This document shows positions 3,837 to 18,508 of a stretch of 64,000 bases of DNA, piece after piece (position 1 is the first letter of the stretch; the number at the start of each line of letters is the position of its first letter). Both the position numbers and the translations under genes were made by a program. The stretch comes from Comamonas sp. Y33R10-2 (GTDB lineage Bacteria; Pseudomonadota; Gammaproteobacteria; Burkholderiales; Burkholderiaceae_C). A model generated the notes under the pieces. It ran no database searches. It saw nothing but the letters and a program-made list of their open reading frames with translations, and had not been told where the DNA came from. The DNA is taken from positions 1,240,001 to 1,304,000 of the forward strand of contig NZ_CP079925.1 in the NCBI RefSeq assembly GCF_019355935.1, written 5' to 3'.

Positions 3837-4256
3837 GTGAGTAATTTCGATTTTTTGGGCATCTATTCCAAATCATTGGCTGCGCTGGGACTGGCTGCCG
3901 AAAAAATCTTTCCCCACGATCCACCCAGCTGCGTTGCCAAGCTTCGGTTGCTGGCGGAGGCCATTGCCAAAGATGTGGCCAGCCGCATGGGTTTGCCGTC
4001 GCAGTCCACACAGGTCGATCTCATTCGCGCCATTGATAAAAAGCTTGGACTGGACCCTCAGTTGCGCCAGGTGTTTCACCTGCTGCGCATGCGCGGTAAT
4101 GATGCGGTGCATGAGGTCGGGGCAGTTATCGGCTATCGGGAAGCACTCGAATCTCTCAAAGTTGCCCGTGAAGTCGCACTCTGGTTTCACCGCACTTTTG
4201 GCAGCGATGCCCATTACAAGCCCGGACCGTTTCAGCTGCCGGATGATCCCAGCTAG
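3837..4256 (+). CDS. DUF4145-like N-terminal part of HsdR, cut off by an in-frame TAG
   Basis: 139 residues from a GTG start with GAGGCAG upstream. The sequence resembles the small helical DUF4145 domain found at the N-terminus of some type I restriction R subunits (LRLLAEAIAKDVASRMG, then FHLLRMRGNDAVHEVG). The reading frame stops at TAG 4254-4256 and resumes at once in the same frame as the HsdR ORF (KLYDLQKQMEALHARL...). The two are therefore one ancestral gene interrupted by a single amber codon, most simply CAG or GAG to TAG. It could act as a separate domain protein, be part of a readthrough product, or be a dead fragment. The sequence cannot say which, and a sequencing error is also possible. 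Confidence 0.65.
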   Translation: MSNFDFLGIYSKSLAALGLAAEKIFPHDPPSCVAKLRLLAEAIAKDVASRMGLPSQSTQVDLIRAIDKKLGLDPQLRQVFHLLRMRGNDAVHEVGAVIGYREALESLKVAREVALWFHRTFGSDAHYKPGPFQLPDDPS

Positions 4257-4280
4257 AAACTCTATGACCTGCAAAAGCAG

Positions 4281-7247
4281 ATGGAAGCGCTGCATGCCCG
4301 TCTGAGCAGCGCACAAGCCCTGAGCTCGGACCAGGAGGCCATGCAGCAGTTGCTGCAGCAACAGGCTGACCAAGAAAAAGCACTGGCAGTGCAAGCCCTG
4401 CAAGAGCGCGATATCTATGAGCAATTGGCCACGGAGGCTAGCGCTACTATCGAAAAGCTCAAGGCCGAGCTGGCTTCTGCGGAGGCCGTTGAGCAAACGC
4501 CCACCGCAGAAGCCGTGCGCAGCTGGAGCAGCCGCTCCCGCAAGGCCGCCAGTCTGGTGCAGATGGATGAAGCGGCTACCCGGCTCATCATTGATCAGAT
4601 GCTGCGTGATGCGGGCTGGAAGGCAGACACCGTGGCTCTGACCCATGCCAAGGGCGCACGCCCTGCACGGGGCCGAAATATGGCCATTGCCGAGTGGCCG
4701 ATGAAGGCTCAGCAAAGTGCAGACTATGTCCTGTTCGCGGGTCTCACGCCTGTGGGTGTGGTGGAGGCCAAGCGTATTAACCAGAACGTCGCAGGAAAAA
4801 TCGGCCAGGCTGAACGCTATGCGCGCGGTTTTCTGCTTGCAGATGACTGCGAGGCGGCTTGGAAGAATGAACAGCCACCTCAGCCTTGGCAAGACGGGCA
4901 GGGCGGCCTGTTCCAGATACCGTTTGCCTACTCCTGCAACGCCCGCCCCTATGTCAAGCAGCATGAGCAATCCAGCGGCACTTGGTTTCGTGACCTGCGC
5001 CACACGGCCAATCTGGCCAGATCATTGCCGGGCTTTCACTCGCCTGAAGGCTTGCTCGATATCCTTAGACGCGATATTGCCAAGGCGCAAGAGAAGCTGG
5101 AGACCGAAGCTGCCGCCTATTTGGGCTTGCGCAGCTACCAGCTCAACGCCATCAGCGCGGTGGAGCAAAGTCTGGCCCATGGCCAGCGCAGCAGCCTGCT
5201 GGCCATGTCCACCGGCACCGGCAAAACCCGCACCATCATTGGCCTAATCTACCGGCTGCTCAAGGCCGAGCGCTTCAAGCGCATTCTGTTTCTGGTGGAG
5301 CGCACTGCGCTGGGCGATCAAGCGCTGGAAGCCTTTGACGAAATGCTGCTTGAGCAGAACATGCCCTTGTCCAAGCTCTACAACATTGCAGAGCTGGGCG
5401 ACATGGCTGCCGAGGCTGAAGACCGCGTACAGGTAGCCACCGTGCAGGCCATGGTCAAACGCATATTTGGCAGCGACAACCCGCCGCCTGTGGACATGTT
5501 TGACTGCGTCATTGTTGATGAAGCCCACCGCGGCTACACGCTTGATCAAGACATGACTGAAGGTGAGCAAGAGTTACGTGACCCAGCGCAGTACATCTCC
5601 ACCTACCGCCGTGTGCTGGACTACTTTGACGCCTTCAAAGTAGGGCTCACCGCCACGCCCGCCAAGCACACCAGCGACATCTTTGGCCACCCCATCTACA
5701 CCTACAGCTACCGCGAAGCTGTGGCAGATGACTGGCTGATTGACCACGAACCCCCCATTCGCTACACCACGCTACTGACCGAAAATGGCATTCACTTTGA
5801 CAAGGGTGATGCCGTTGAAAGCATTCACCTGCAAACAGGAGAAATCGACACAGCAGAGCTGGAGGATGAGCTGCACTTTGACGTGGCCAGCTTCAACAAA
5901 GGCGTGCTCAACGATAACTTCAACCGCGTCATCTGCAACCAGCTCGCGCAGGAGCTTGATCCGTTCAGTGACGAGAAGACCATGATCTTCTGCGCCACCG
6001 ATACCCATGCCGACACGGTGGTGCGCATGCTGGGCGAGGCCTTCAAAGAACTGCATGGCGATGCCTACAACCAAGCCACCGTCACCAAAATCACGGGCAA
6101 GACCGACAAAGTCAGCCAGATGATTCGTAACTACAAAAACGAGGCCTATCCCAAGGTCGCGGTCACGGTGGATTTGCTCACCACCGGCATTGATGTGCCG
6201 CGCATCTGCAATCTCGTCTTCATGCGCCGCGTGCGCTCGCGCATCTTGTACGAGCAGATGATTGGCCGCGCCACGCGCCGCTGCGATGACATTGGCAAAA
6301 CCGTCTTTCGCATCTACGACCCCGTGGATTTGTATGCCACGCTGCAAGACGTCAACACCATGCAGCCGTTGGTCAAAGATCCCAGCGTCACCATTGACCA
6401 ACTGTTCGAGGAGCTGCACAACCCGGCTTCCTACACCGCCCCTGGCAGTACGCCCGAGCGCAAACATGCCGACGACGTGCTCGACCAGCTCAACCAAAAA
6501 CTCATGCGCGTGCTGCGCAAGGCCACGCATAAAGCTGAGAAAAAACCCGTCCTCAAAGAGCGCCTGCAGCAGCTGGAGCAAAGCTGGGGCGTGCCCCCTG
6601 CGCAGCTGCACAAGCACCTGCATGAAGTGGCTCAAAAGCAAGGCACACAGGCCGCCGCCAACTTTCTGCGCGACAACACCCGTTTGCTCCAGCAACTGGG
6701 CGAGGTGCAAGAACTCATGGGCACGGCCTACCGTCCTGTACTGTCTGACCATCACGACGAGCTTGTAGCCCGCGAGCAAAGCTGGGGCAGTTATGCCAAG
6801 CCTGAAGACTATCTGGACGGCTTTGCCCGCTTCATCAAAGAGCAGCTCAACCAGTCGGTGGCGCTGTCCGTAGTGGTCAACCGCCCCAAAGACCTCACAC
6901 GCGAACAGTTGCGTGAAGTGCGCCTGCTGCTTGACGGCGCAGGCTTTTCAGAAGCTGCCCTCAAAGCCGCATGGCGCAACCAGAGCAATCAGGACATTGC
7001 CGCCGGCATCGTCGCTCACATTCGCAAAGCAGCGCTAGGCGAGGCTTTGCTGCCTTTTGAAGACCGCGTCAACCATGGCATGCAGCGCATTTACAGTCTG
7101 CGTAGCTGGACCACGGCGCAGCGCAGTTGGCTGGACCGCATTGCCAAACAGCTCAAGCACGAGACCGTGGTGGACAGTCGCTTTCTCAACGAAGCCTTCC
7201 GCCAGCAAGGCTGGCACCAAGCAGGTGGACAAGGTGCTAGGCGGTGA
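4281..7247 (+). CDS. hsdR: Type I restriction enzyme R subunit (EcoEI-like)
   Basis: 988 residues from the first in-frame ATG after the amber codon; no good ribosome-binding site precedes it. Order of parts: a coiled-coil-like Gln/Ala/Glu-rich segment (1-70), an HsdR N-terminal nuclease of the PD-(D/E)xK type (Asp148, then Glu162-Ala-Lys164 in VVEAK), then a superfamily 2 translocase with TGTGKT 311-316, DEAH 413-416, GLTATP 455-460 and the late motif QMIGRATRR. An EcoEI-type C-terminal helical region closes it. As the R subunit it would bind HsdM2S, translocate DNA and cut unmodified DNA. The domains downstream of the stop look intact, so restriction may survive if this ORF is translated from its own start. 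The mate subunits follow after two inserted genes. Confidence 0.92.
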   Translation: MEALHARLSSAQALSSDQEAMQQLLQQQADQEKALAVQALQERDIYEQLATEASATIEKLKAELASAEAVEQTPTAEAVRSWSSRSRKAASLVQMDEAATRLIIDQMLRDAGWKADTVALTHAKGARPARGRNMAIAEWPMKAQQSADYVLFAGLTPVGVVEAKRINQNVAGKIGQAERYARGFLLADDCEAAWKNEQPPQPWQDGQGGLFQIPFAYSCNARPYVKQHEQSSGTWFRDLRHTANLARSLPGFHSPEGLLDILRRDIAKAQEKLETEAAAYLGLRSYQLNAISAVEQSLAHGQRSSLLAMSTGTGKTRTIIGLIYRLLKAERFKRILFLVERTALGDQALEAFDEMLLEQNMPLSKLYNIAELGDMAAEAEDRVQVATVQAMVKRIFGSDNPPPVDMFDCVIVDEAHRGYTLDQDMTEGEQELRDPAQYISTYRRVLDYFDAFKVGLTATPAKHTSDIFGHPIYTYSYREAVADDWLIDHEPPIRYTTLLTENGIHFDKGDAVESIHLQTGEIDTAELEDELHFDVASFNKGVLNDNFNRVICNQLAQELDPFSDEKTMIFCATDTHADTVVRMLGEAFKELHGDAYNQATVTKITGKTDKVSQMIRNYKNEAYPKVAVTVDLLTTGIDVPRICNLVFMRRVRSRILYEQMIGRATRRCDDIGKTVFRIYDPVDLYATLQDVNTMQPLVKDPSVTIDQLFEELHNPASYTAPGSTPERKHADDVLDQLNQKLMRVLRKATHKAEKKPVLKERLQQLEQSWGVPPAQLHKHLHEVAQKQGTQAAANFLRDNTRLLQQLGEVQELMGTAYRPVLSDHHDELVAREQSWGSYAKPEDYLDGFARFIKEQLNQSVALSVVVNRPKDLTREQLREVRLLLDGAGFSEAALKAAWRNQSNQDIAAGIVAHIRKAALGEALLPFEDRVNHGMQRIYSLRSWTTAQRSWLDRIAKQLKHETVVDSRFLNEAFRQQGWHQAGGQGARR

Positions 7248-7379
7248 GCTGGAAACCGTTGTTACTCAATTGGCTGAAGCGCTATGGCAAAGAGCCGCAT
7301 AAGGCGGTCACTTGTGTTGAGAGAAGAAGCTGCACTATTGCAATCGTATTTTTGTACAGAGACCTGATCTAGAAAAGCC

Positions 7380-9245
7380 ATGGATATCAAAGCCCAAGTA
7401 CACAAAGTTGAAAAGCTCAATGAGTATTTTTTTATGGTGCCGGATTACCAGCGTGAATACGTCTGGCGTGTAGACCATGAGGTTCAGCAGTTTTTAGAAG
7501 ACGTCTCTGCTGAATTTGATCCCGGATCAAAGCAGCAAAGTAACTACTTTATTGGCTCTGTCATTGTGGTGAAAAAAGGCAGCCAGTACGAGGTCATTGA
7601 TGGCCAGCAGCGCCTTACAACTATCACCCTAGCGATGTGTGCCATGCGCGACTTATATCGGCCGCACCAACCAACGCTGACAGCGCGGCAAGAGCAATAC
7701 TTCAAGAAAGTCGGTGAGTGGTTATCAACGTTCGATGCTGAAGCGGATGAGATGCGGCCCCGTCTCAGCCTGCAGTACGAGGAAAGCAAAGACTTCTTGG
7801 GCAATCTGATTCAGGCGGGTGATGTCCCCTCTCCGGACGACAGTGCCTCCATTCTCAAGATGCGCTCTGCTTACTTGAGCATCAAAAACTGGCTTGATGG
7901 GCAGTATCTGAAGGTCGGAGTTGAAGATTTCACCAACTTTGTACGCTACTTTTTGGCGAACATTGAGTTGGTCGTCATTGAGTCGGAAAGCATCAGTAGT
8001 GCGCTGAAGATTTTTGAAACCATCAACCAGCGCGGCGCAGGCCTGAACGCGATGGACTTGTTCAAGAATCTGCTGTTTCGCAGTGCAGATCAAAACAAGT
8101 TTGTACAGATCAAGGAAAAGTGGCGAAGCATGAGCGCCCACCTTACTCAGGCAGGAGAAGGCGACAAGCCATTGCGCTTTTTGCGCTACTTGTTCATGGC
8201 ACGCTTTCACGCGGGCATCCTGCGTGAAGATGAACTCTATGCATGGATTGTGTCTCCCAAGGGGAAAATCGCACTCGGTTATGAAGATCACCCAGTCGCC
8301 TTAGCTAGCAAGCTGGAGAAAGCCGCCAAGCGCTACGCAGACTTGGTAGTCGCCACTAAATTGGAGGACGATGGAGGGGACTATCCCGCTGTAACGCGTA
8401 TTGGCTTTATCAACAAAGTCGGTTCGCGTCTGCATCTGATCTTGCTGCTCGCTCTGGATGAAAATGCGGCAACTGACAGTCTTGAATATCTGGCCACACA
8501 CATTGAAAGTTATTTCTTCTTTAGCAATGTGATTGGGATACGCACCAACATCAATGAACCCTTGTTTAGTCAATGGGCTGCACAGCTTCGCGGTCTCAAG
8601 GAGGTTGTGGATATTGAACAAGTGCTTGAGAAAACCATGTTTGCTTATCTGCGCCTGAAACTGACGGATTTCAAGCAAAAGTTTCTGGCTAGCAAGATCA
8701 ATGATTTCAACCCGCTGTACCGAACACGCTATGTGCTAGGGCGCATGGAAAACACGCTGCTGGGTGCTGCGGGTATGCCTCTTAAGGGGCTTCAATTCAT
8801 TAACGGCCTGCAAATCGAGCACATTCTTCCCCAGACGCCAGATGCAGACGGCATCCCTGAGTCATTGGCCAGCGATCCGGAGAGCTACCAAGCCTTGGTG
8901 GGGTTGCTGGGTAATGGGACTTTGCTTGAAAGCACGATCAATCAGGCTGTCAATAAATGCAATGACCTGCACGGCAACTGGTTCGAGCGCAAGCAGGGCG
9001 AATATGTCAAATCCAGCTTGCTGGGCACGCAATTGCTGGATGCAGCTTTCACTATTGGTGTGAACACAGGTGTCAACCGTGTCAAGAACGCGCTGGGCTA
9101 TCACTTCTTGACGTGGGACGGAGATGCCATTGGACGGCGCCAGCAGTTGCTACTGGAGTTGGCATTGCAAACCTGGACATTCAGCTCCAAGCGTCTGGAT
9201 ACAGTCACCATATCCGCGGCAGCTGAGCCTGCCTTGGGCGCGTAG
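7380..9245 (+). CDS. DUF262/DUF1524 protein (GmrSD-like)
   Basis: 621 residues. The N-terminal DUF262 (ParB/Srx-like NTP-binding fold) shows VPDYQREYVW (20-29) and the hallmark IDGQQRLT (73-80). The C-terminus shows an HNH-type DUF1524 signature, IEHILPQ at about residue 478 followed by a conserved LGNGTLLEST. This two-domain layout is that of GmrS-GmrD fusions, nucleotide-dependent nucleases that cut DNA with modified cytosines, and of many defence-island proteins. It sits between hsdR and hsdM on the same strand, so it is probably an accessory of this restriction locus. A partner role with the type I enzyme, or independent type IV restriction of modified phage DNA, are both inference. Codon use matches its neighbours. 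Confidence 0.8.
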   Translation: MDIKAQVHKVEKLNEYFFMVPDYQREYVWRVDHEVQQFLEDVSAEFDPGSKQQSNYFIGSVIVVKKGSQYEVIDGQQRLTTITLAMCAMRDLYRPHQPTLTARQEQYFKKVGEWLSTFDAEADEMRPRLSLQYEESKDFLGNLIQAGDVPSPDDSASILKMRSAYLSIKNWLDGQYLKVGVEDFTNFVRYFLANIELVVIESESISSALKIFETINQRGAGLNAMDLFKNLLFRSADQNKFVQIKEKWRSMSAHLTQAGEGDKPLRFLRYLFMARFHAGILREDELYAWIVSPKGKIALGYEDHPVALASKLEKAAKRYADLVVATKLEDDGGDYPAVTRIGFINKVGSRLHLILLLALDENAATDSLEYLATHIESYFFFSNVIGIRTNINEPLFSQWAAQLRGLKEVVDIEQVLEKTMFAYLRLKLTDFKQKFLASKINDFNPLYRTRYVLGRMENTLLGAAGMPLKGLQFINGLQIEHILPQTPDADGIPESLASDPESYQALVGLLGNGTLLESTINQAVNKCNDLHGNWFERKQGEYVKSSLLGTQLLDAAFTIGVNTGVNRVKNALGYHFLTWDGDAIGRRQQLLLELALQTWTFSSKRLDTVTISAAAEPALGA

Positions 9246-9289
9246 TTAGGGGCGAAACGCCAACATTTCTGAGTTAGAGAAAGAGCGCC

Positions 9290-9910
9290 ATGCAAAAACC
9301 TCTCAGTGTGGAATCTCTAGAAAAACTGGGGCGCGTACGCCTGTCCCAGTCGTTTTTCATGCGCGACTTCCTCTACAGTGAAATTGCCAACCACTACGGC
9401 CTGCGCAACGCGCCAGCCAACCCGGATTTGGCCATTGAAGCAGGCACGCGCCTGTGCGAAGAGCTGCTGGAGCCCCTGCAGGCCACCTTTGGACGCATTG
9501 TCATCCGCTCGGCCTACCGCTCACGCGAAGTCAATGACCTGGGCAACGCCAAAGACCACAACTGCGCCAGCAGCGACAGCAACCGTGCTGCCCATATCTG
9601 GGATGAGCGCGATGCCAACGGCCACATGGGGGCCATGGCCTGCATCGTTGTGCCGTGGCTGCTAGACCACCGCAAGCCCGAGGACTGGCCTGCCATGGCG
9701 TACTGGATTCATAACCACTTGCCTTACAGCTCGCTCACATTTTTCTCAAAACTCGGTGCGTTCAACATCGGCTGGCATGAAAATCCCCAGCGCAGCATTC
9801 ACAGCTACGCCGCACCAAAAGGCAAACTCCTGCCCGCCGGGCTTCCTCCTGATCCAGCGCTGGCAGCACACTACGCAGGCTTTCCCACCTTGTTAGCGCC
9901 CTCGCGCTAA
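9290..9910 (+). CDS. Small peptidase M15-like protein in the restriction operon
   Basis: 206 residues with an ATG at 9290 after GAAAGAG. It contains IVIRSAYRSREVN, which resembles the SGYRS/RSAYRS block of M15 (D-Ala-D-Ala carboxypeptidase-like) peptidases. It is followed about 30 residues later by AAHIWDERDANGHMGAMA, which could supply zinc-binding His and Asp residues. No signal peptide or membrane segment is visible, so a cytoplasmic role is more likely than a cell-wall role. I recall proteins of this type next to type I restriction genes, with no established function. It lies 44 bp after the GmrSD-like gene and 94 bp before hsdM. Catalytic activity is uncertain because the full zinc triad cannot be assigned by eye. 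Confidence 0.5.
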   Translation: MQKPLSVESLEKLGRVRLSQSFFMRDFLYSEIANHYGLRNAPANPDLAIEAGTRLCEELLEPLQATFGRIVIRSAYRSREVNDLGNAKDHNCASSDSNRAAHIWDERDANGHMGAMACIVVPWLLDHRKPEDWPAMAYWIHNHLPYSSLTFFSKLGAFNIGWHENPQRSIHSYAAPKGKLLPAGLPPDPALAAHYAGFPTLLAPSR

Positions 9911-10004
9911 AAATAATAGCTACCTGTGCCTTTGAAATATAGGTTTCATGCTCAATAGATAATCAAACCTAATAACTATCAGCACAAGCAGCTATAAAAA
10001 AGAT
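9911..10004 (+). repeat. Imperfect inverted repeat between the M15-like gene and hsdM
   Basis: ATAGCTACCTGTGC (about 9918-9931) faces GCACAAGCAGCTAT (about 9982-9995) as an imperfect stem with an AT-rich centre. The AGCT-containing arms resemble those at 976-1082, which suggests a dispersed intergenic repeat family. It separates two co-directional genes and could attenuate or terminate transcription ahead of hsdM. Confidence 0.4.
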
Positions 10005-11462
10005 ATGACCACCTCTGATATCGTCCAGAAACTCTGGAACCTTTGCGACGTCCTGCGTGACGACGGCATCAACTACAGCGACTACGTCACCGAACTCGTG
10101 CTGCTGCTCTTCATCAAGATGGAGCATGAAAACCTCGAATCCGGCGTCATCAAACAACCGCTGCTGCCCGACTACGCCCGCTGGAATCAGCTGCGCGGCC
10201 TCTCGGGCATCGACCTGCTCAACACCTACCGCCGCACGCTGCAGCAGCTGTCTGAATCCGCCAACCCCCGCATTGCCGCCATCTACGCCAATGCCCAGAC
10301 CAGCCTGAGCGAGCCGCGCCATCTGGAGCAGCTCATCAACGACCTTGACCGCATTGACTGGTTTGACATCGACAAAGACGGTCTGGGCGACCTGTACGAA
10401 GGCCTGCTGGAGAAAAACGCCAGCGAAACCAAAAGCGGCGCAGGTCAGTACTTCACCCGGCGCCCGCTGATTGACGCCATGATTGCCGTCATGCGCCCGC
10501 AAGTGGGTGAGACCATTCAAGACCCCGCCGCAGGCACGGCCGGCTTTTTGATTGCCGCCGACCGTGCCATTCGCGCCCAAACCGACGATTTACTGGATCT
10601 CACCGAAGCTCAGCGCGCCTACCAAATTCGCAAAGCCTATGTCGGTATGGAACTGGTACCCAACACCCGGCGGCTGGCGCTGATGAACTGCCTGCTGCAT
10701 GGGATTGAGGGAGACCAAGAAGGCGCCATTCATCTGGGCAACACCCTGGGCACCGCCGGTCAGCGCCTGCCCAAAAGCGACATCATCCTCAGCAACCCGC
10801 CCTTTGGCACGGCCAAGGGCGGCGGTGGCCCCACGCGTGATGACCTGACCTACGCCACCAGCAACAAGCAGCTGGCCTTTGTGCAGCACATCGTCAAGCA
10901 CCTCAAAGACGGTGGCCGCGCCGCCGTGGTCTTGCCCGACAACGTGCTGTTTGAAGCCGGCGTAGGCGCAGACATTCGCCGCGCCCTGATGGACAAATGC
11001 CGGCTGCACACGGTACTCAGACTGCCCACCGGCATCTTCTACGCACAGGGCGTCAAAACCAATGTGCTTTTCTTTGAGAAGGTGGGCGAAGCCGCCACCG
11101 GCAGCACCAAAGACGTGTGGGTGTACGACATGCGTGCCAATGCCCCCAAGTTTGGCAAGCGCACCCCGCTGACCGACGTGCACTTTGCCGAATTCATCGC
11201 AGCCTACGGCGAAGACGAAAACGGCAAGAGCGAGCGCACCGATGGCGGCGAACAAAGCCGCTGGCGCTGCTTTAGTCGGGAGTGGATCAAGAGCGAAAAG
11301 CAAGACAGCCTGGACATTGCTTGGCTCAAGGACGACAGCGTGGAAGATGCCGCCGACTTGCCCGAACCCGCCGTGCTGGCGCGGGAGGTAACGGATGAGC
11401 TGAATGCGGCGCTGGAGGAGTTGGAGGGGATATTGGCGGAGTTGGGGGAGGTTGCGGAATGA
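10005..11462 (+). CDS. hsdM: Type I restriction-modification N6-adenine methyltransferase
   Basis: 485 residues, normal for HsdM. The N-terminal HsdM helical domain (LWNLCDVLRDDGINYSDYV) precedes the methyltransferase core. SAM-binding motif I is DPAAGTAGFL near residue 173 and the catalytic motif IV is NPPFG near residue 264; GQYFTRRPLI just upstream of motif I is also characteristic. It transfers methyl groups to adenine in the target chosen by HsdS and forms the M2S modification core to which HsdR adds. The stop overlaps the hsdS start (ATGA, 11459-11462), which indicates translational coupling. The frame is intact, so modification should be functional even if restriction is impaired. Confidence 0.96.
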   Translation: MTTSDIVQKLWNLCDVLRDDGINYSDYVTELVLLLFIKMEHENLESGVIKQPLLPDYARWNQLRGLSGIDLLNTYRRTLQQLSESANPRIAAIYANAQTSLSEPRHLEQLINDLDRIDWFDIDKDGLGDLYEGLLEKNASETKSGAGQYFTRRPLIDAMIAVMRPQVGETIQDPAAGTAGFLIAADRAIRAQTDDLLDLTEAQRAYQIRKAYVGMELVPNTRRLALMNCLLHGIEGDQEGAIHLGNTLGTAGQRLPKSDIILSNPPFGTAKGGGGPTRDDLTYATSNKQLAFVQHIVKHLKDGGRAAVVLPDNVLFEAGVGADIRRALMDKCRLHTVLRLPTGIFYAQGVKTNVLFFEKVGEAATGSTKDVWVYDMRANAPKFGKRTPLTDVHFAEFIAAYGEDENGKSERTDGGEQSRWRCFSREWIKSEKQDSLDIAWLKDDSVEDAADLPEPAVLAREVTDELNAALEELEGILAELGEVAE

Positions 11463-12787
11463 GTGCGCTGCCAACAGGTTGGTCGAAAACGCCAATCGAT
11501 GCAATTGCGGAATTCAATCCCAAAACGATTGCGGATGACTCATTGCAATGTGCTTTCTCGCCAATGCAACATCTGGGAATTCGTTTTCGAGCAAGCATGG
11601 GATATGAAGATCGAAAATGGGGTGATATTAAAAAGGCCTATGTTCATTTTCAGTCGCGTGACGTGATTGTTGCGAAAGTCACCCCTTGCTTTGAGAACGG
11701 AAAAGCAGGTGTTGTCCCTGAGATCCCCAATGGGATTGGCGCAGGTAGTTCCGAGTTTTGTGTTTTTCGGCCAGCCCAAGGCATTGACGAACGTTATTTG
11801 CTGGCTTGGCTGAGTACAGAAGATTTTCGACGCAGAGCGACCGTAGTAATGACGGGCTCCGTGGGTTTGAAGCGCGTGCCCAAAGATGTGTTTCTTTCGG
11901 AAGAACTACCGCTGGCACCTGAAAGTGAACAACGCCGCATCGCCGACAAACTCGACACCGTTCTGACCCGTGTCGATACCCTGAATGACCGCCTCGCCCG
12001 CATTATCCCCTTGCTCAAACGCTTCCGCCAATCCGTCTTGGCCGCAGCCACTTCTGGGCGATTGACGGAGGATTGGCGAATCAGTCATTCATCTGCGAAA
12101 TGGTCAAGCGCAGAGATTCAGAACGTTGCTCATGTTGGGACGGGATCTACGCCGCTGCGCTCAAACCCAGATTTCTTTGCTACCTCAGGGACACCTTGGG
12201 TCACAAGCTCTGCCACAAGCGAGGAGTTTGTAAAACAAGCAGAGGAGCATGTGACTTCAGCTGCAATTGCTGCGCATCGTTTGAAAATTTATCCAGTCGG
12301 TACGCTGCTGGTTGCAATGTATGGCGAAGGTAAAACGCGCGGACAAGTTACTGAGCTGAAAATTTCTGCGGCGATAAATCAAGCATGTGCCGCTGTGATT
12401 GTTGATGAAACGAAAATTAGCAAGCAATTCGTTAAGTTATCACTGCAAGCAAATTATCTTGAAATGCGAACTTTGGCAGAAGGTGGGAATCAGCCGAATT
12501 TGAATTTGAGTAAAATAAAAAGCTTTGCAATATCAGTGCCTTCACAAGAAGAACAAACCGAAATCGTCCGCCGCGTAGAAATCCTGTTCGCCTATGCCGA
12601 CCGCCTGGAAGCCCGCCTGCAAACTGCCCGCACCGCCGCCGACCGCCTGACGCCCGCGCTGCTGGCCAAGGCCTTTTGCGGCGAGTTGGTTCCGCAAGAC
12701 CCGAATGACGAACCGGCCACCGAGCTGCTGTGTCATCTGCGCGAGGCGCGTGCGGACAAATCAAGAGGTGAAGGCAGGAGACGTTAA
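11459..12787 (+). CDS. hsdS: Type I restriction specificity subunit
   Basis: 442 residues with the usual two-fold plan: target-recognition domain 1 (about 1-155), a central conserved coiled coil (SEQRRIADKLDTVLTRVD), target-recognition domain 2 (about 205-355), and a distal coiled coil (EEQTEIVRRVEILFAYADRL). A C-terminal tail is rich in Arg and Glu. It determines the bipartite DNA sequence recognised by the complex. The two recognition domains use visibly more AT-rich codons than the conserved helices, as expected of exchangeable modules. Translationally coupled to hsdM. The target sequence cannot be deduced. Confidence 0.95.
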   Translation: MSALPTGWSKTPIDAIAEFNPKTIADDSLQCAFSPMQHLGIRFRASMGYEDRKWGDIKKAYVHFQSRDVIVAKVTPCFENGKAGVVPEIPNGIGAGSSEFCVFRPAQGIDERYLLAWLSTEDFRRRATVVMTGSVGLKRVPKDVFLSEELPLAPESEQRRIADKLDTVLTRVDTLNDRLARIIPLLKRFRQSVLAAATSGRLTEDWRISHSSAKWSSAEIQNVAHVGTGSTPLRSNPDFFATSGTPWVTSSATSEEFVKQAEEHVTSAAIAAHRLKIYPVGTLLVAMYGEGKTRGQVTELKISAAINQACAAVIVDETKISKQFVKLSLQANYLEMRTLAEGGNQPNLNLSKIKSFAISVPSQEEQTEIVRRVEILFAYADRLEARLQTARTAADRLTPALLAKAFCGELVPQDPNDEPATELLCHLREARADKSRGEGRRR

Positions 12788-12947
12788 TGACTTTGCTCAA
12801 GCTTAAGTGTGAATCAATCATAAACTCGTAGCTATTACACTAGGACAAAAAAATAAGAGATATAGTATTAGTAGGGATATCCATTAAATAATATAAGAAA
12901 TATTTAATCTATCAAATTTTTAAAGATAAAATATTTAAGGAGGTAAA
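12788..12947 (+). promoter_or_regulatory. AT-rich leader of the GTPase cassette
   Basis: About 160 bp of abruptly AT-rich DNA after hsdS, with no ORF. It ends in a strong ribosome-binding site, AAGGAGGT, just before the ATG at 12948. It probably carries the cassette's own promoter; several TATAAT-like stretches occur (for example GATATAGTATTAG near 12858) and I cannot choose one. Confidence 0.45.
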
Positions 12948-13991
12948 ATGGAAGCTGTTATTCAAAAAGAGGTTGATGAAATAAAACGTAAGATAGAAGA
13001 AGAGAGTAACGTAAAGGTTTCGGTTGCTTTATTTGGTCAGCCAGGTGCAGGAAAATCATCTCTAATTAATGCAATCGCAGGGAAAAAGCTTGCCGAGACA
13101 GGAGTGGAGACTGACAAAACCATTAAAGAGCATGTTTTTTCCATAAACGGGCTAAATTTTGTGGATTTACCAGGCTATGGGACGGAAAAATTCCCAAAGC
13201 AAGGGTATTTTGATAAATTTGATCTTTTGGAAAAAGATATTTTTTTGTGTGTGACGAGTGGTAAATTGCATGCAGATGATATTGATCTTTTTAAAGAGCT
13301 CCATAAGAATAAAAAAACTTGCATTTTTGTTTTCAACAAATCAGATGATCTTTGGGAAGACGGTTATTCAGAAGAAGAATTAAAAAAACGTAAAAAAGAT
13401 GATATTTCAAAAAATATAGGATTAGAAGTAGATGTAATTTTTACAAGTTGCAGGAATAAAACAGGGCTGAATGAACTGCAAGACAAGATTGCATCTTGCT
13501 TGGGTGCTGCAAAAAAAGATCGATGGCATAAAAGTGCTGCTGCATACTCAGAGGATTTTTTAAATAAGAAATTTACTGTATGTAAGAAAAATGTTGTGAT
13601 TGCAGCAGGGCTTTCTGCAGCAAATGCATTGAACCCCATTCCAGGGACAGATATTGCTTTGGATATTTCAATTCTTGTGAAACTATTTAAAGAAATACGT
13701 GAGTCTTATGGCATTGATGGATTGAAGCAGGATGATATTTTAGACAAAGCAAAGAATGTTGCTCCAGCTGTTAATCGTGTAATTAGCTATGCTGCAAAAG
13801 AAGGTGTTGTTTTATTAATTAAAAATTATGCAGGACGACAACTGGCAAAGCAAATGACAAAATATATACCTTTTGTAGGTCAAGCCATTGCCGCATCACT
13901 TGGATTTGCAATTACCAACTATGCTGGCAGATCTTACCTTGATGACTGTCATTCGGTCGCAAAAGAATACTTTGCCAAAAATTTAAAATAA
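12948..13991 (+). CDS. GTPase with C-terminal DUF697/IRG-like hydrophobic region
   Basis: 347 residues with a strong AAGGAGGT ribosome-binding site. All GTPase motifs are present: G1 GQPGAGKSS (30-38), a Thr switch region near TDKT (55-58), G3 DLPGYG (73-78), G4 NKSD (130-133) and a G5-like TSCRN (166-170). The C-terminal half is helical. ALNPIPGTDIALDISILVKLF (227-247) resembles the PIPG-D motif of DUF697 and the membrane-associating region of IRG/dynamin-like proteins, and a second hydrophobic stretch lies at 305-325. The protein may associate with membranes in a nucleotide-dependent way. It is much more AT-rich than the flanking genes and overlaps functionally with the next gene, two bases downstream. 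Its position behind a restriction locus suggests a defence role, which is inference only. Confidence 0.7.
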   Translation: MEAVIQKEVDEIKRKIEEESNVKVSVALFGQPGAGKSSLINAIAGKKLAETGVETDKTIKEHVFSINGLNFVDLPGYGTEKFPKQGYFDKFDLLEKDIFLCVTSGKLHADDIDLFKELHKNKKTCIFVFNKSDDLWEDGYSEEELKKRKKDDISKNIGLEVDVIFTSCRNKTGLNELQDKIASCLGAAKKDRWHKSAAAYSEDFLNKKFTVCKKNVVIAAGLSAANALNPIPGTDIALDISILVKLFKEIRESYGIDGLKQDDILDKAKNVAPAVNRVISYAAKEGVVLLIKNYAGRQLAKQMTKYIPFVGQAIAASLGFAITNYAGRSYLDDCHSVAKEYFAKNLK

Positions 13992-13993
13992 CG

Positions 13994-14566
13994 GTGAACT
14001 ATAACAAAACAGATTGCTTGCCAAGTTTTTTAATTGATTCTTGGCAAGCGTTTGACACTGTGACTCTTCCGGTTGTTGCCTTTTGGGGGCAACCAGGAAG
14101 TGGTAAAAGTTCGACGCTAAAAAAAATTCTTGGTTCTGGTGCCAGTCTTTATCCCAAAGTTGGCTTAGAGACTGATGCCACAGATTGGCTAAGGGATTCA
14201 CCACTATTTTTTCATACATCTTTCATATCATTTATGGATACGCCTGGCTATGGGACCAAAAAATACTCAGTAAGTGATTTTATTGATTTATTTCCTTTTT
14301 CAAAATTAGCATTAAATATTTTTTTTGTGTCTGGAAAAATATATTCTGATGATGTTAAGTTTTTTAAAAAATTAATCGAATCCAGGAAAAGAATTTGTTT
14401 GGTTAGAAGTTTTTCAGATTCTTTAGAGAAAGAGTCTATTAATTTAATTGTTAATGATTTAAGGAAGTCTTTTGACTTCCAAGGAAAAATAATTTTCTTA
14501 TCTAATAAAAATAACATCGGATATATAAAATTGAAGGAGTGGATCAGAAATGAATTAAATTTTTGA
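13994..14566 (+). CDS. Second, degenerate GTPase paired with the upstream one
   Basis: 190 residues from a GTG two bases after the preceding stop, so probably translationally coupled. It is a diverged paralogue of the upstream protein's GTPase domain: G1 GQPGSGKSS (32-40), G3 DTPGYG (82-87), and a matching SGKIYSDDVKFFKKL block (SGKLHADDIDLFKEL in the partner). The G4 position reads VRSFSDS instead of VFNKSDD, so the Asn-Lys that reads the guanine base is lost while the Asp stays. There is no C-terminal hydrophobic domain. It may be a regulatory or pseudo-GTPase subunit that dimerises with its partner. The DNA is strongly AT-rich. Its function is unknown. Confidence 0.65.
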   Translation: MNYNKTDCLPSFLIDSWQAFDTVTLPVVAFWGQPGSGKSSTLKKILGSGASLYPKVGLETDATDWLRDSPLFFHTSFISFMDTPGYGTKKYSVSDFIDLFPFSKLALNIFFVSGKIYSDDVKFFKKLIESRKRICLVRSFSDSLEKESINLIVNDLRKSFDFQGKIIFLSNKNNIGYIKLKEWIRNELNF

Positions 14567-14667
14567 TAACAATTTTCAGGTTTTTGCTTGAAAATTTCTG
14601 TAGATTTTTAAAGCCTATTTAGTATCAAAATATATTAAAAATTTCTAATTGAAACGAATGCAAAGAG

Positions 14668-15342
14668 ATGAAGATATTGAATTTAAAAATGTATGGGCTA
14701 ATAATTTGGAGTATGGCAGCGTCGCAAGCCAACGCCTATGAGACGTATCTGCAAACCAAGTTTGGTACTTTGTCTGTGGATGAGAACCGACTGCTGCATT
14801 TCAACGGCAAGCCCGTCACTCCGGGGGTGATGGGGAATAGCAGTCTGTCTATCGGAAACGCCTACGATGTCGGCGGCAAGGTTCTGGTGCTCACCACCAA
14901 TGTCGGTGGCACAGGTTGCCCCGAGCTGTTTAATGTCATTACGCTTGACGCAGGCAAGGCGGTTTCATCGCCCACATTTGGTACCTGTGATGAGCCTCAC
15001 AAGATCCAGCTGTTGAATAAGTCGCTGGTGATTGAGATGGAAGGCCGGCAAGGTCAGCACAAATATGTGTTTGCCGATAGCGTGCTGACAGACAACGGCA
15101 AGGTCGTGGCGGATGTGTATTCCAGCAAACCATTCTCAGTGACAGCTGTGATCAACGACCCGGACGGATATACCAATCTGCGCAGGTCCCCTGACGGCAA
15201 GAGTGCGATTATTGGGCGCGTTGATAAAGAAAATATATTTAGCACCCATCCCCAGGCAGGCGACTGGTGGCAGGTGCGGGTGAACGCCAATACGCAGGGC
15301 TATATGCACAAAAGCCGTATTTTGATGGTTCGCGATTTTTGA
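14668..15342 (+). CDS. Secreted SH3-domain protein
   Basis: 224 residues with an N-terminal signal peptide (KMYGLIIWSMAASQANA, cleavage expected after ANA), so the mature protein is probably periplasmic. The C-terminal third is an SH3b-like domain: DPDGYTNLRRSP, then GDWWQVRV and GYMHKSRI, the usual pattern of bacterial SH3 domains that bind cell wall or partner proteins. The middle region (about 30-140) is unassigned and has two Cys residues (GTGCPEL, FGTCDEP) that could form a disulfide. GC content returns to the level of the host chromosome, so it does not belong to the AT-rich GTPase cassette. No catalytic motif was recognised. Confidence 0.6.
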   Translation: MKILNLKMYGLIIWSMAASQANAYETYLQTKFGTLSVDENRLLHFNGKPVTPGVMGNSSLSIGNAYDVGGKVLVLTTNVGGTGCPELFNVITLDAGKAVSSPTFGTCDEPHKIQLLNKSLVIEMEGRQGQHKYVFADSVLTDNGKVVADVYSSKPFSVTAVINDPDGYTNLRRSPDGKSAIIGRVDKENIFSTHPQAGDWWQVRVNANTQGYMHKSRILMVRDF

Positions 15343-15650: not shown

Positions 15651-15929
15651 ATGAACGCACAACGCTACCCAGAAGAATTCAGGATTGAGGCCGTCAAGCA
15701 AATCTTGGAACACGGCCACAGCGCAGCCGACGTCTCACGCCGTTTAGGCGTGAGCACGCATAGTCTGTATAAGTGGATTCGACTGCAGCAAATCCCCGCA
15801 GCTCAGCGGCAGGAGCAAGTCAGTCAAAGCGAAGAATTACGCCGTATCAAATCAGAACTCAAAAGGGTCACCGAGGAGCGTGACATCCTAAAAAAAGCGG
15901 CGGCGTACTTCGCTCGCCAGTGCGACTGA
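15651..15929 (+). CDS. IS3-family transposase OrfA
   Basis: 92 residues. An N-terminal helix-turn-helix (EEFRIEAVKQILEHGHSAADVSRRLGVS) is followed by a leucine-zipper-like coiled coil (SEELRRIKSELKRVTEERDI), the normal OrfA plan. It binds the IS ends. Near its 3' end a run of seven A followed by G (15890-15897) is a likely -1 slippery site. Frameshifting there would fuse OrfA to OrfB and give the active OrfAB transposase. The start ATG has AGGAG upstream. Confidence 0.93.
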   Translation: MNAQRYPEEFRIEAVKQILEHGHSAADVSRRLGVSTHSLYKWIRLQQIPAAQRQEQVSQSEELRRIKSELKRVTEERDILKKAAAYFARQCD

Positions 15930-16801
15930 AGTACGCCTTCATTGCCAAGCACCAGTTGATTTACAGCGTTGTGCGCATGTGCCGGGTGCTGCAATTGCAC
16001 CCCAGTGGTTACTACGCTTGGAGGGTTCGGCCGCTCAGTCAACGTGCGGCCGATGACCAGCGTCTATTGGGCCTTCTAAAGCAGGCATGGCTAGAAAGCG
16101 GTGGCGTATATGGCTATCGCAAGTTGACATTGGACATGCGTGACTTAGGCGAGACCTGCAGCAGGCACCGGGTAGCAAGACAGCTGCGCTGTGAGGGGTT
16201 AAAGGCTCAGCGAGGCTACGGACGACGCCCTCGTGTGCGAGGAGGTGCTCCAGCAGTCGTGGCTCCCAACTTACTATCGCAGCAGTTCACCGTGCATGCT
16301 CCGAACAAAGTCTGGGTGACTGATATAACCTATATCAGCACTCATGAGGGGTGGCTGTACCTGGCAACGGTAATTGACCTGTTCTCACGCCAAGTTGTTG
16401 GCTGGGCAACAGGTAGCCGCATTGATACCCAGCTGCCCTTGGATGCATTGCATATGGCGCTCTGGCGTAGAAGACCATGCAATACCGTGACCGTGCACTC
16501 TGACCAAGGCTGCCAATTTACAAGCCATGAATGGCAGCGCTTCCTTGCTAGCCACAACCTGCAATCGAGTATGAGCAGGCGAGGAAACTGTCACGACAAC
16601 GCAGTTGCTGAAAGCTTCTTTCAGTTGCTTAAGCGGGAGCGCATCCGCAGAAAAACCTATCCTACGAGGCAAGAGGCGCACAGCGATGTCTTCAGCTACA
16701 TCGAAATGTTCTACAACCCCATTCGCAGACATTCATCTGCTGATGGTCTGTCTCCAATAGAGTTTGAGAGACGTAATTCCGTGAGGCTGGCAGCTATCTA
16801 A
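15920..16801 (+). CDS. IS3-family transposase OrfB (DDE catalytic part)
   Basis: 293 residues in the -1 frame relative to OrfA, overlapping it by ten bases. It contains the HTH_21-like region (SGGVYGYRKLTLDM) and an rve integrase core with catalytic residues Asp135 (VWVTDITYI), Asp195 (VHSDQGCQF) and Glu231 (NAVAESFF). The 35-residue gap between the last two is diagnostic of IS3 transposases. The C-terminus, FYNPIRRHSSADGLSPIEFE, is also typical. Expected product is the OrfAB fusion made by frameshifting at the A7G tract. The gene is complete. Confidence 0.95.
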   Translation: MRLKYAFIAKHQLIYSVVRMCRVLQLHPSGYYAWRVRPLSQRAADDQRLLGLLKQAWLESGGVYGYRKLTLDMRDLGETCSRHRVARQLRCEGLKAQRGYGRRPRVRGGAPAVVAPNLLSQQFTVHAPNKVWVTDITYISTHEGWLYLATVIDLFSRQVVGWATGSRIDTQLPLDALHMALWRRRPCNTVTVHSDQGCQFTSHEWQRFLASHNLQSSMSRRGNCHDNAVAESFFQLLKRERIRRKTYPTRQEAHSDVFSYIEMFYNPIRRHSSADGLSPIEFERRNSVRLAAI

Positions 16802-17440: not shown

Positions 17441-18436
17441 TCAGACCGTCATCACACGCTCGGATTGGCTGTTTTTCAGCAAGCAGGCACGGGCCATCCA
17501 CAAATTCGCCAGGGCGAACAGCGTGTGCAGTTGCTGGGTGTTCTTTCTCAAACCTCGGCAGCGAACTTTGACATGCCCAAACTGGCGTTTGATGACCCGG
17601 AACGGGTGTTCGACCTTGGCTCGAATCTTGGACTTAACCTTTTCAAGCTGCTCTCGCAAGGCTGGTATCGGCTGCTGCAGATCCAGCGCCTTGCGCTTGC
17701 TGCGCTTCATGGCGATGTGCCAGCGTAGTTCATGCTCAAGTGTTGGTGCAGGCATATCGGGGCGCTTATCTACCCCTTGGTAGCTAGCGTCACCATAGCC
17801 ATCAACCTCTTGTCCGTGAAGCAGGCTGTTGGCTTCAACGACATCGCTGACATTGGCCGCGGTACCTCGTACGGTATGCACCAGGCCAGAGTCTGCATCC
17901 ACACCAATATTGGCCTTCATACCGAAGTACCACTGGTTGCCTTTCTTGGTTTGGTGCATCTCCGGATCCCGAGACTTGGTGCTGTTCTTGGTAGATGTGG
18001 GCGCAGCGATCAACGTCGCATCGACAATGGTGCCCGTGCGCAGCAACAGCTTTTTGCTCTCCAGCAAGTACGTGATGGTCTTCAGGATTTGCTCGGCCAG
18101 TTTGTGCGTTTCTAGCAGATGACGGAAACGCAGGATGGTGGTCTCGTCTGGTGTGGCACTGTCCCAGGACAAGCCAACAAAGTCCCGGAACAGTGGCATG
18201 TCGTGCAGCGCTTCTTCCATGGCCGGATCGCTGAGCGTGAACCATTGCTGCATGAAATGGATGCGAAGCAGCATCTCAACAGGAAACGGAGGCCGGCCTG
18301 TGCGTCCTTCAGGGGCATAGGGCGCAATCAAGGCCACCAAGTCTCTCCACGGCACGACTTGCTGCATCTGCTCCAAGAATTCACGTTTGCGGGTCTTCTT
18401 GATGGACAGGTTCAGGCCGAGATCAAATTGCTGCAT
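17441..18436 (-). CDS. IS5-family transposase
   Basis: 331 residues when started at the ATG whose complement is 18434-18436 (MQQFDLGLNL), which aligns with the usual IS5 start; an upstream in-frame start would add nine residues. It has the N-terminal DUF772-like region (GRPPFPVEMLLRIHFMQQWF, SDPAMEEALHDM) and the DDE core: TIVDATLIAAPTST (first Asp), GVDADSGLVHTVRGT region and YGDASYQG (second Asp), and VEHPFRVIKRQFG (Glu). It catalyses cut-and-paste movement of the 17333-18508 element. The frame is uninterrupted, so activity is plausible. Confidence 0.93.
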   Translation of the reverse strand: MQQFDLGLNLSIKKTRKREFLEQMQQVVPWRDLVALIAPYAPEGRTGRPPFPVEMLLRIHFMQQWFTLSDPAMEEALHDMPLFRDFVGLSWDSATPDETTILRFRHLLETHKLAEQILKTITYLLESKKLLLRTGTIVDATLIAAPTSTKNSTKSRDPEMHQTKKGNQWYFGMKANIGVDADSGLVHTVRGTAANVSDVVEANSLLHGQEVDGYGDASYQGVDKRPDMPAPTLEHELRWHIAMKRSKRKALDLQQPIPALREQLEKVKSKIRAKVEHPFRVIKRQFGHVKVRCRGLRKNTQQLHTLFALANLWMARACLLKNSQSERVMTV

Positions 18437-18508
18437 GGGCCGGAATGCTGCCGCAACCGGCACACATGTGCAAGCACATGCGTGGGGGGAGTTATGCAGA
18501 GGTTCCCT

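Follow-up and report, generated by a model that had tools for sequence, protein, structure and literature searches.

From our analysis of a 64,000-nucleotide stretch of the Comamonas sp. Y33R10-2 chromosome (hereafter, the window), we found two adjacent genes, ORF1 and ORF2, predicted to encode an IRG-type GTPase and a pseudo-GTPase partner, which are conserved as a pair and which lie in a genomic slot that is held by JukAB in two sister genomes. This arrangement suggests that the pair is an undescribed phage-defence module. Our favoured reading, to which we give moderate confidence, is that of a two-gene system directed against phages or other mobile elements, mobile at least in Proteobacteria, in which a membrane-acting IRG-type GTPase would be controlled by a pseudo-GTPase partner. 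The confidence is limited by two results described below, namely the NAPRTase context of the pair in Bacilli and the outcome of the N6 methylase comparison.

ORF1 (12948..13991, plus strand) begins with ATG and encodes 347 amino acids, with features of an IRG/IIGP-type GTPase with intact G1-G5 motifs and a helical, hydrophobic C-terminal region; a Shine-Dalgarno sequence, AAGGAGGT, was read by eye at 12937..12944 on the same strand. The first-pass annotation, made from the sequence alone, had described two adjacent GTPase reading frames, the first with the full set of motifs, and our analyses bear this out: ORF1 carries G1 (GQPGAGKSS), the switch (ETDKT), G3 (DLPGYGT), and G4 (NKSD), ORF2 starts 2 nt after its stop codon, and a block SGKxxxxDDxxxFKxL is common to both. 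The same annotation had likened ORF1 to both DUF697 and IRG proteins, of which the IRG likeness was upheld and the DUF697 likeness was not. ORF1 matched Pfam PF05049 (IIGP/IRG) with 80.1 bits (E 2.3e-22) against a curated cut-off of 24, whereas its match to DUF697, with 14.3 bits (E 0.035), fell short of the cut-off of 27.7; in a family-wide genome search, 30 of 150 genomes matched, and the matches outside its own genome covered the C-terminal DUF697-like part only. Mouse Irgb10 aligned to the ORF1 family profile at near full length (positions 3-343, E 6.7e-26), and IRGs made up the first 37 matches of the ORF1 model in a PDB fold search, with a TM of about 0.4 and an rmsd of about 17-21 over the whole chain, values to be read with a model (pTM 0.59) whose domain arrangement is uncertain. 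By sequence, ORF1 belongs to the IRG/IIGP family. We found 669 ORF1 homologues at E 1e-3; among 212 full-length rows of this type, NKxD was present in 180, N--D in 197, and a tyrosine after DLPG in 211.

ORF2 (13994..14566, plus strand) encodes 190 amino acids from a GTG start that lies 2 nt past the ORF1 stop, and no Shine-Dalgarno sequence was seen by eye before it; its translation is probably coupled to that of ORF1. The protein is a paralogue consisting of the G domain only, from which the helical domain is absent, and carries GQPGSGKSS, ETDAT, and DTPGYGT; at the NKxD site it has SFSD after VR, so that the degenerate G4 loop (14402..14419, plus strand) reads V-R-S-F-S-D in place of x-x-N-K-x-D. 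Its match to PF05049 was 24.6 bits against the cut-off of 24, and it also scored high enough to pass the threshold of MMR_HSR1, a general family. A profile-profile comparison of the ORF1 and ORF2 families (probability 99.9%, E 7e-37) agrees with the earlier view of the second protein as a paralogue reduced to its GTPase domain. When ORF2 was searched as a single sequence it returned only itself, which would make it a unique gene; this was an artefact of sensitivity, as the profile search found at least 143 relatives at E 1e-8. The ORF2 of the window is divergent, being 25-33% identical to the 25 partners from the other pairs, while the mean over all partner pairs is 39.5%.

The degenerate G4 in ORF2, pointed out in the first-pass annotation, proved to be general. 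We compiled 148 partner rows (120 database proteins, the 26 pair loci described below, the window, and Deinococcus, some of them redundant), and NKxD was found in none of them, the usual form being [RK]-S-[FY]-[AS]-[DE]; the loss of G4 is therefore a trait of the partner family and not decay within the window. The G1 residues G--GKS, the switch T-D, the tryptophan after the switch, and the G3 residues D-PG were invariant in all 148 rows, and a tyrosine occupied the position after the G3 PG in 144. In a set of 72 partner sequences there were 15 invariant columns, including the P-loop, T60, D61, W65, G3, P101, K115, and S170. With a nucleotide-binding motif lost family-wide, the partners can be classed, as far as motifs tell, as pseudo-GTPases, although some nucleotide binding by ORF2 is possible since the P-loop and G3 are kept. 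A hydrophobic N-terminus was present in 98 of the 148 partners, 87 of which start with MWW; among partners at the loci it occurred in 7/10 of the proteobacterial and 2/16 of the Bacilli proteins. Being patchy in the family and missing from the ORF2 of the window, such an anchor is not essential to the partner family.

We then turned to the distribution of the pair. Counting how often the two genes occur together across genomes had been put forward as a check with the first-pass annotation, and the co-occurrence is real: a survey for the ORF1 family with one genome per species gave 71 loci, and at 26 of these (10 in Proteobacteria and 16 in Bacilli) a short ORF2-type gene lay directly downstream in the same orientation, with a spacing of −17 to +11 nt. 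The remaining genome loci carried either tandem full-length IRG-like genes (21 loci) or an ORF1-type gene that was single or cut off by the contig end (24 loci; e.g., L039, L060, L061, L101). On plasmids, Deinococcus has the pair with its genes 1 nt apart, and Azospirillum has ORF1 without a partner. A search of the 53 genomes of the genus at E 1e-30 gave an ORF1-type gene in the own genome and in none of the 52 others; again with the own genome included, such a gene was present in 3 of 369 genomes of the class and 1 of 398 of the phylum (both at E 1e-50). The two other carriers in the class differ, one having the partner downstream but an interrupted ORF1 frame, and the other having a contig that stops at the ORF1 gene. 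When ten pair genomes were searched whole, with positions compared by hand, IIGP-family matches occurred at the pair locus only, and the family was found in 0 of 14 control genomes. The distribution of the pair is thus very patchy.

The two genes have also diverged together. Pairwise distances of ORF1 and ORF2 were correlated with r of 0.84 over 26 pairs, and of 0.77 over the 18 pairs that remained after thinning Cohnella and Domibacillus; the observed r was reached in none of 2000 permutations. The test was run without L040 and L100, in which ORF1 is split in the record. This correlation shows joint inheritance and not contact, as shared descent gives co-divergence too. Among the 15 taxon labels, no third gene on the sense strand recurred in three or more, which makes the pair the unit. 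Three clusters did reach three taxon labels: one is the pair itself, another consists, among the ORFs listed, of reverse-strand ORFs that overlie the pair by coordinates, and the last holds 21 reverse-strand ORFs from 9 loci; of these ORFs, 18 face longer ones on the other strand, for the most part those of NAPRTase or of the partner. A phage origin was also considered and set aside: 50,697 phage records yielded no match at E 1e-10, and only two viral contigs carry the ORF1 family, both without the partner.

In the window, the pair stands at the end of a type I restriction locus, all genes being on the plus strand: hsdR (4281..7247), a type I restriction subunit gene which is apparently broken, a GmrSD/HEC-06-like restriction gene (7380..9245) between hsdR and hsdM, hsdM (10005-11462), and hsdS (11459-12787). 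The pair is followed by a gene for an SH3-domain protein (14668..15342), which anchors the exchange site on its downstream side. The AT-richness noted at first pass was confirmed, the G+C content being 32% at 12788-14667 against 55.6% at 4281-12787 and 54.6% in the window. We compared the locus across the genus, using 53 genomes by protein and 31 by DNA. In two congeners, G526 and G530, the type I locus, including the 3' end of hsdS, and the SH3 gene are shared with the window at 87-94% DNA identity (88-94% for the hsdS and SH3-gene flanks), while the segment 12756..14705 of the window has no blastn match and is replaced by about 2.1 kb carrying two genes, which PADLOC assigned to JukA (E 7.7e-86) and JukB (E 3.1e-114). 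The SH3 gene itself was found in 4 of the 53 genomes, once with the IRG pair, twice with JukAB, and once at a contig edge. With the same flanks enclosing JukAB in G526 and G530, the IRG pair occupies the cargo slot of a known two-gene anti-phage system. This position is the strongest functional hint that we have, and it comes from three occupied slots in three genomes of one genus.

Other features of the locus merit description. The hsdR region (3837-7299) is interrupted by a premature stop codon in the first part, and its frame is broken again close to the end, whereas the congeners have full-length proteins of 1157-1161 aa; decay of the restriction subunit is therefore possible. Between hsdR and hsdM (7295-10003), the window has the GmrSD/HEC-06-like gene, which does not stand there in the two congeners, and a small ORF (9290-9910), where the congeners have only about 264 bp; the operon thus has a second cargo slot. 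Transposase-like ORFs seen by eye at 15651-16801 and 17441-18463, just downstream of the SH3 gene, are a possible route of cargo exchange. A scan of the region for promoters and terminators gave nothing above shuffled sequences.

To characterize the neighbourhoods of the other pairs, 49 neighbours of the ten proteobacterial loci and one Bacilli protein (L057) were run against PADLOC one by one, with an E limit of 1e-10 or 1e-15. As a raw count from PADLOC and Pfam, defence genes lie near 4 of the 10 proteobacterial loci, i.e., L032 (GmrSD-type and TIR), L035 (type IIG RM and a Hhe/PDC-S37 helicase by PADLOC, SRA-HNH by Pfam), L040 (Dsr1, in two frames), and L044 (a complete type I R-M-S and a CARF protein), the last with a layout resembling that of the window. 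No clear defence gene was seen near L033, L034 (WYL only), L036, L038, L062 (WYL; Clp-type AAA), or L100. The PADLOC hits of L062 to PDC-M37B/DolB were discounted, Pfam identifying a Clp-type AAA protein, and the neighbour at L050 is an SNF2 helicase. At L038 (Paraburkholderia), a Dynamin_N protein of 816 aa (9806-12256) follows the pair. The Deinococcus pair lies inside a BREX locus, between pglZ/brxL and methylase/brxC; this locus (L105, Deinococcus sp. QL22 plasmid) also has a gene for a DarT-family ADP-ribosyltransferase.

The surroundings in Bacilli are of another kind. A NAPRTase gene is found no more than 2.5 kb from the pair at 6 of the 16 Bacilli loci (L041, L043, L045, L047, L048, and L054; positions converted by hand), which belong to five of seven Cohnella and one Paenibacillus only, and this adjacency suggests a stable chromosomal home for the pair there. 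No defence genes were seen beside the Bacilli pairs among the families listed (25 of 115) for a pooled set of 126 proteins, in which the Bacilli neighbours other than the L057 protein were run against PADLOC. N6 methylases gave 49 matches in 20 of the 26 pair genomes, and a single pair (1/26, L044) had one within 10 kb against about 0.2 expected by hand estimate, which is not significant; at L047 a methylase is about 18 kb from the pair. The contig assignment behind these distances, made by contig number or length, is not certain for a few contigs. The defence-island setting that the first-pass annotation had proposed to check is therefore supported in part: the four proteobacterial loci, BREX, and the JukAB slot (filled by JukAB in 2 of 53 genus genomes) speak for it, and the metabolic neighbours in Bacilli and the methylase count speak against it. 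Its proposal of an anti-phage or abortive-infection module finds the same evidence on its two sides.

The statement that no named system with this layout was known has stood up against the systems compared here. The pair matches none of the bacterial systems tested, being distinct from Eleos, Juk, and Cj-DLP-type pairs, and we found no description of a bacterial IRG and pseudo-GTPase pair or defence system in the open literature searched. The Eleos layout comprises two GTPase genes, and the G domain of ORF1 does match the PADLOC LeoA model (E 1.6e-10). Unlike Eleos proteins, however, ORF1 is matched over its G domain only (LeoA 39-200/559, LeoBC 57-206/601), and ORF2, a 190 aa protein without G4, only over LeoA 47-80/559 (E 0.005); neither protein has a full-length LeoA or LeoBC match in PADLOC. 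Eleos is described as a dynamins-like defence system (PMC11811056). The Juk system resembles the pair in being a two-gene module and in holding the same slot in two congeners, but neither ORF1 nor ORF2 matched JukA or JukB at E 0.1 in PADLOC; according to the literature, Juk acts on the vesicle that forms early in jumbo phage infection, and JukB makes pores on it (PMC13282480). Cj-DLP1/2 are adjacent paralogous GTPases that are needed together and act in membrane tethering (PMC6104087), yet both are large and possess a neck and a trunk domain, whereas ORF2 is a bare G domain of 190 aa. Paralogous GTPase pairs have also been predicted in the DO-GTPase conflict systems, two copies being present in 38% (PMC7159879); these systems differ in that their Walker B glutamate is conserved and their effectors vary, while the G3 of ORF1 is DLPG and the pair has no widely recurring third component.

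There is also a likeness to vertebrate proteins. ORF1 matches the family of the vertebrate IRGs (p47) over both the G and the helical domains. In zebrafish, irgg-irgq1 is a tandem transcript in which a quasi-GTPase comes after a truncated but canonical IRG, and for which a regulatory role of the quasi partner has been proposed (PMC1297648); as in ORF1-ORF2, an IRG directly precedes a paralogue with a degenerate nucleotide site. ORF2 nevertheless differs from the vertebrate quasi-IRGs (IRGQ) in being bacterial, in keeping the P-loop and G3 while losing G4, and in consisting of the G domain only. IRG-like GTPases were already noted in bacteria by Bekpen et al. (2005), where the relation was considered not establishable (PMC1297648).

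On our favoured reading, the pair would work as follows. ORF1 would act on membranes through its hydrophobic helical C-terminal region, while ORF2, which keeps the P-loop, the switch threonine, and G3 and would have lost guanine-specific reading, would pair with the G domain of ORF1, either keeping it inactive or licensing its assembly until an infection is detected. The complex would then open, and ORF1 would oligomerise and damage the host inner membrane or a membrane made by the phage. The G domains of IRGs and dynamin-like proteins dimerise with the nucleotide between them, and their assembly on membranes is powered by hydrolysis. The mouse immunity-related GTPases help against intracellular parasites and attack the parasite vacuole, and the anti-phage proteins of bacteria include relatives of several animal immune proteins. 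A bolder version, by analogy with these proteins, would be a bacterial IRG-quasi-IRG immune system, with an IRG effector and a pseudo-GTPase controller, attacking membranes made by the invader, such as the early infection vesicle of nucleus-forming jumbo phages, which is the reported target of JukAB. We regard this version as unlikely; if it were true, cell-autonomous IRG immunity and its logic of effector and quasi partner would gain a bacterial counterpart or root. If the pair is anti-phage at all, a simple bacterial host would make the pairing of IRG and quasi-IRG testable, and the two genes would be a small model for the control of an active GTPase by one without G4.

Against a dedicated anti-phage role, the pair could serve membrane maintenance or stress, like dynamin-like pairs that tether or repair membranes, and its restriction neighbours would then reflect general mobility. 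The metabolic surroundings in Bacilli, with NAPRTase within 2.5 kb at 6/16 loci, would fit such a role, as would the description of bacterial dynamin-like genes as usually paired with both partners needed (PMC6104087). The very patchy distribution, JukAB in the sister slot, and the BREX and restriction neighbours argue otherwise, and ORF2 has neither stalk nor trunk, unlike dynamin-like partners; we hold this explanation to be possible, if rather unlikely. The restriction neighbours could also be taken to mean that the pair is an accessory of the type I RM or BREX systems and no system of its own, given that hsdRMS lies directly upstream in the window and at L044, and that the Deinococcus pair is inside BREX. 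There is, however, no constant sense-strand neighbour in the 26 loci, an N6 methylase is near only 1/26, and the hsdR of the window looks broken beside an intact pair, which makes this very improbable.

Two further explanations concern the relation between the genes themselves. Two small, coupled, AT-rich genes could form a toxin-antitoxin-like unit, with ORF1 as a membrane toxin and ORF2 as its antidote, a unit retained chiefly because it causes addiction or stabilises an island, and a pseudo-GTPase would be a plausible inhibitor. Relatives of ORF1 without a short partner (24 of 71 loci single or cut off, 21 tandem, and Azospirillum) indicate, however, that ORF1 is not obviously lethal alone, and we consider this reading quite unlikely. 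Nor is it at all probable that ORF2 is a functionless, decaying duplicate and that ORF1 works alone. The divergence of the window ORF2, its missing hydrophobic N-terminus, and the occurrence of single ORF1 relatives would be in keeping with decay, but the conservation of the partner family seen in its invariant columns and numerous homologues, together with its place beside ORF1 in Proteobacteria, Bacilli, and Deinococcus, argues against it.

The G-domain phylogeny bears on how often such partners arose. In a tree of 118 tips, built without vertebrate sequences and weak at its deep nodes, the 28 partners form one group, with a support of 0.77 or 1.0 depending on the side of the midpoint root. 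The tandem full-length IRG-like pairs (L065, L067, L074, L075, L079-L091, L093, L095, L096, and L098) are mainly from Negativicutes, and in 11 of these 21 loci the first copy is without NKxD. Eleven first copies form a separate clade with a support of 0.999, and the six names listed for it all belong to the copies without NKxD. On this tree, G4 seems to have been lost in one member of an IRG-like pair at least twice, and the tandem first copies are likely a second origin of a G4-less partner.
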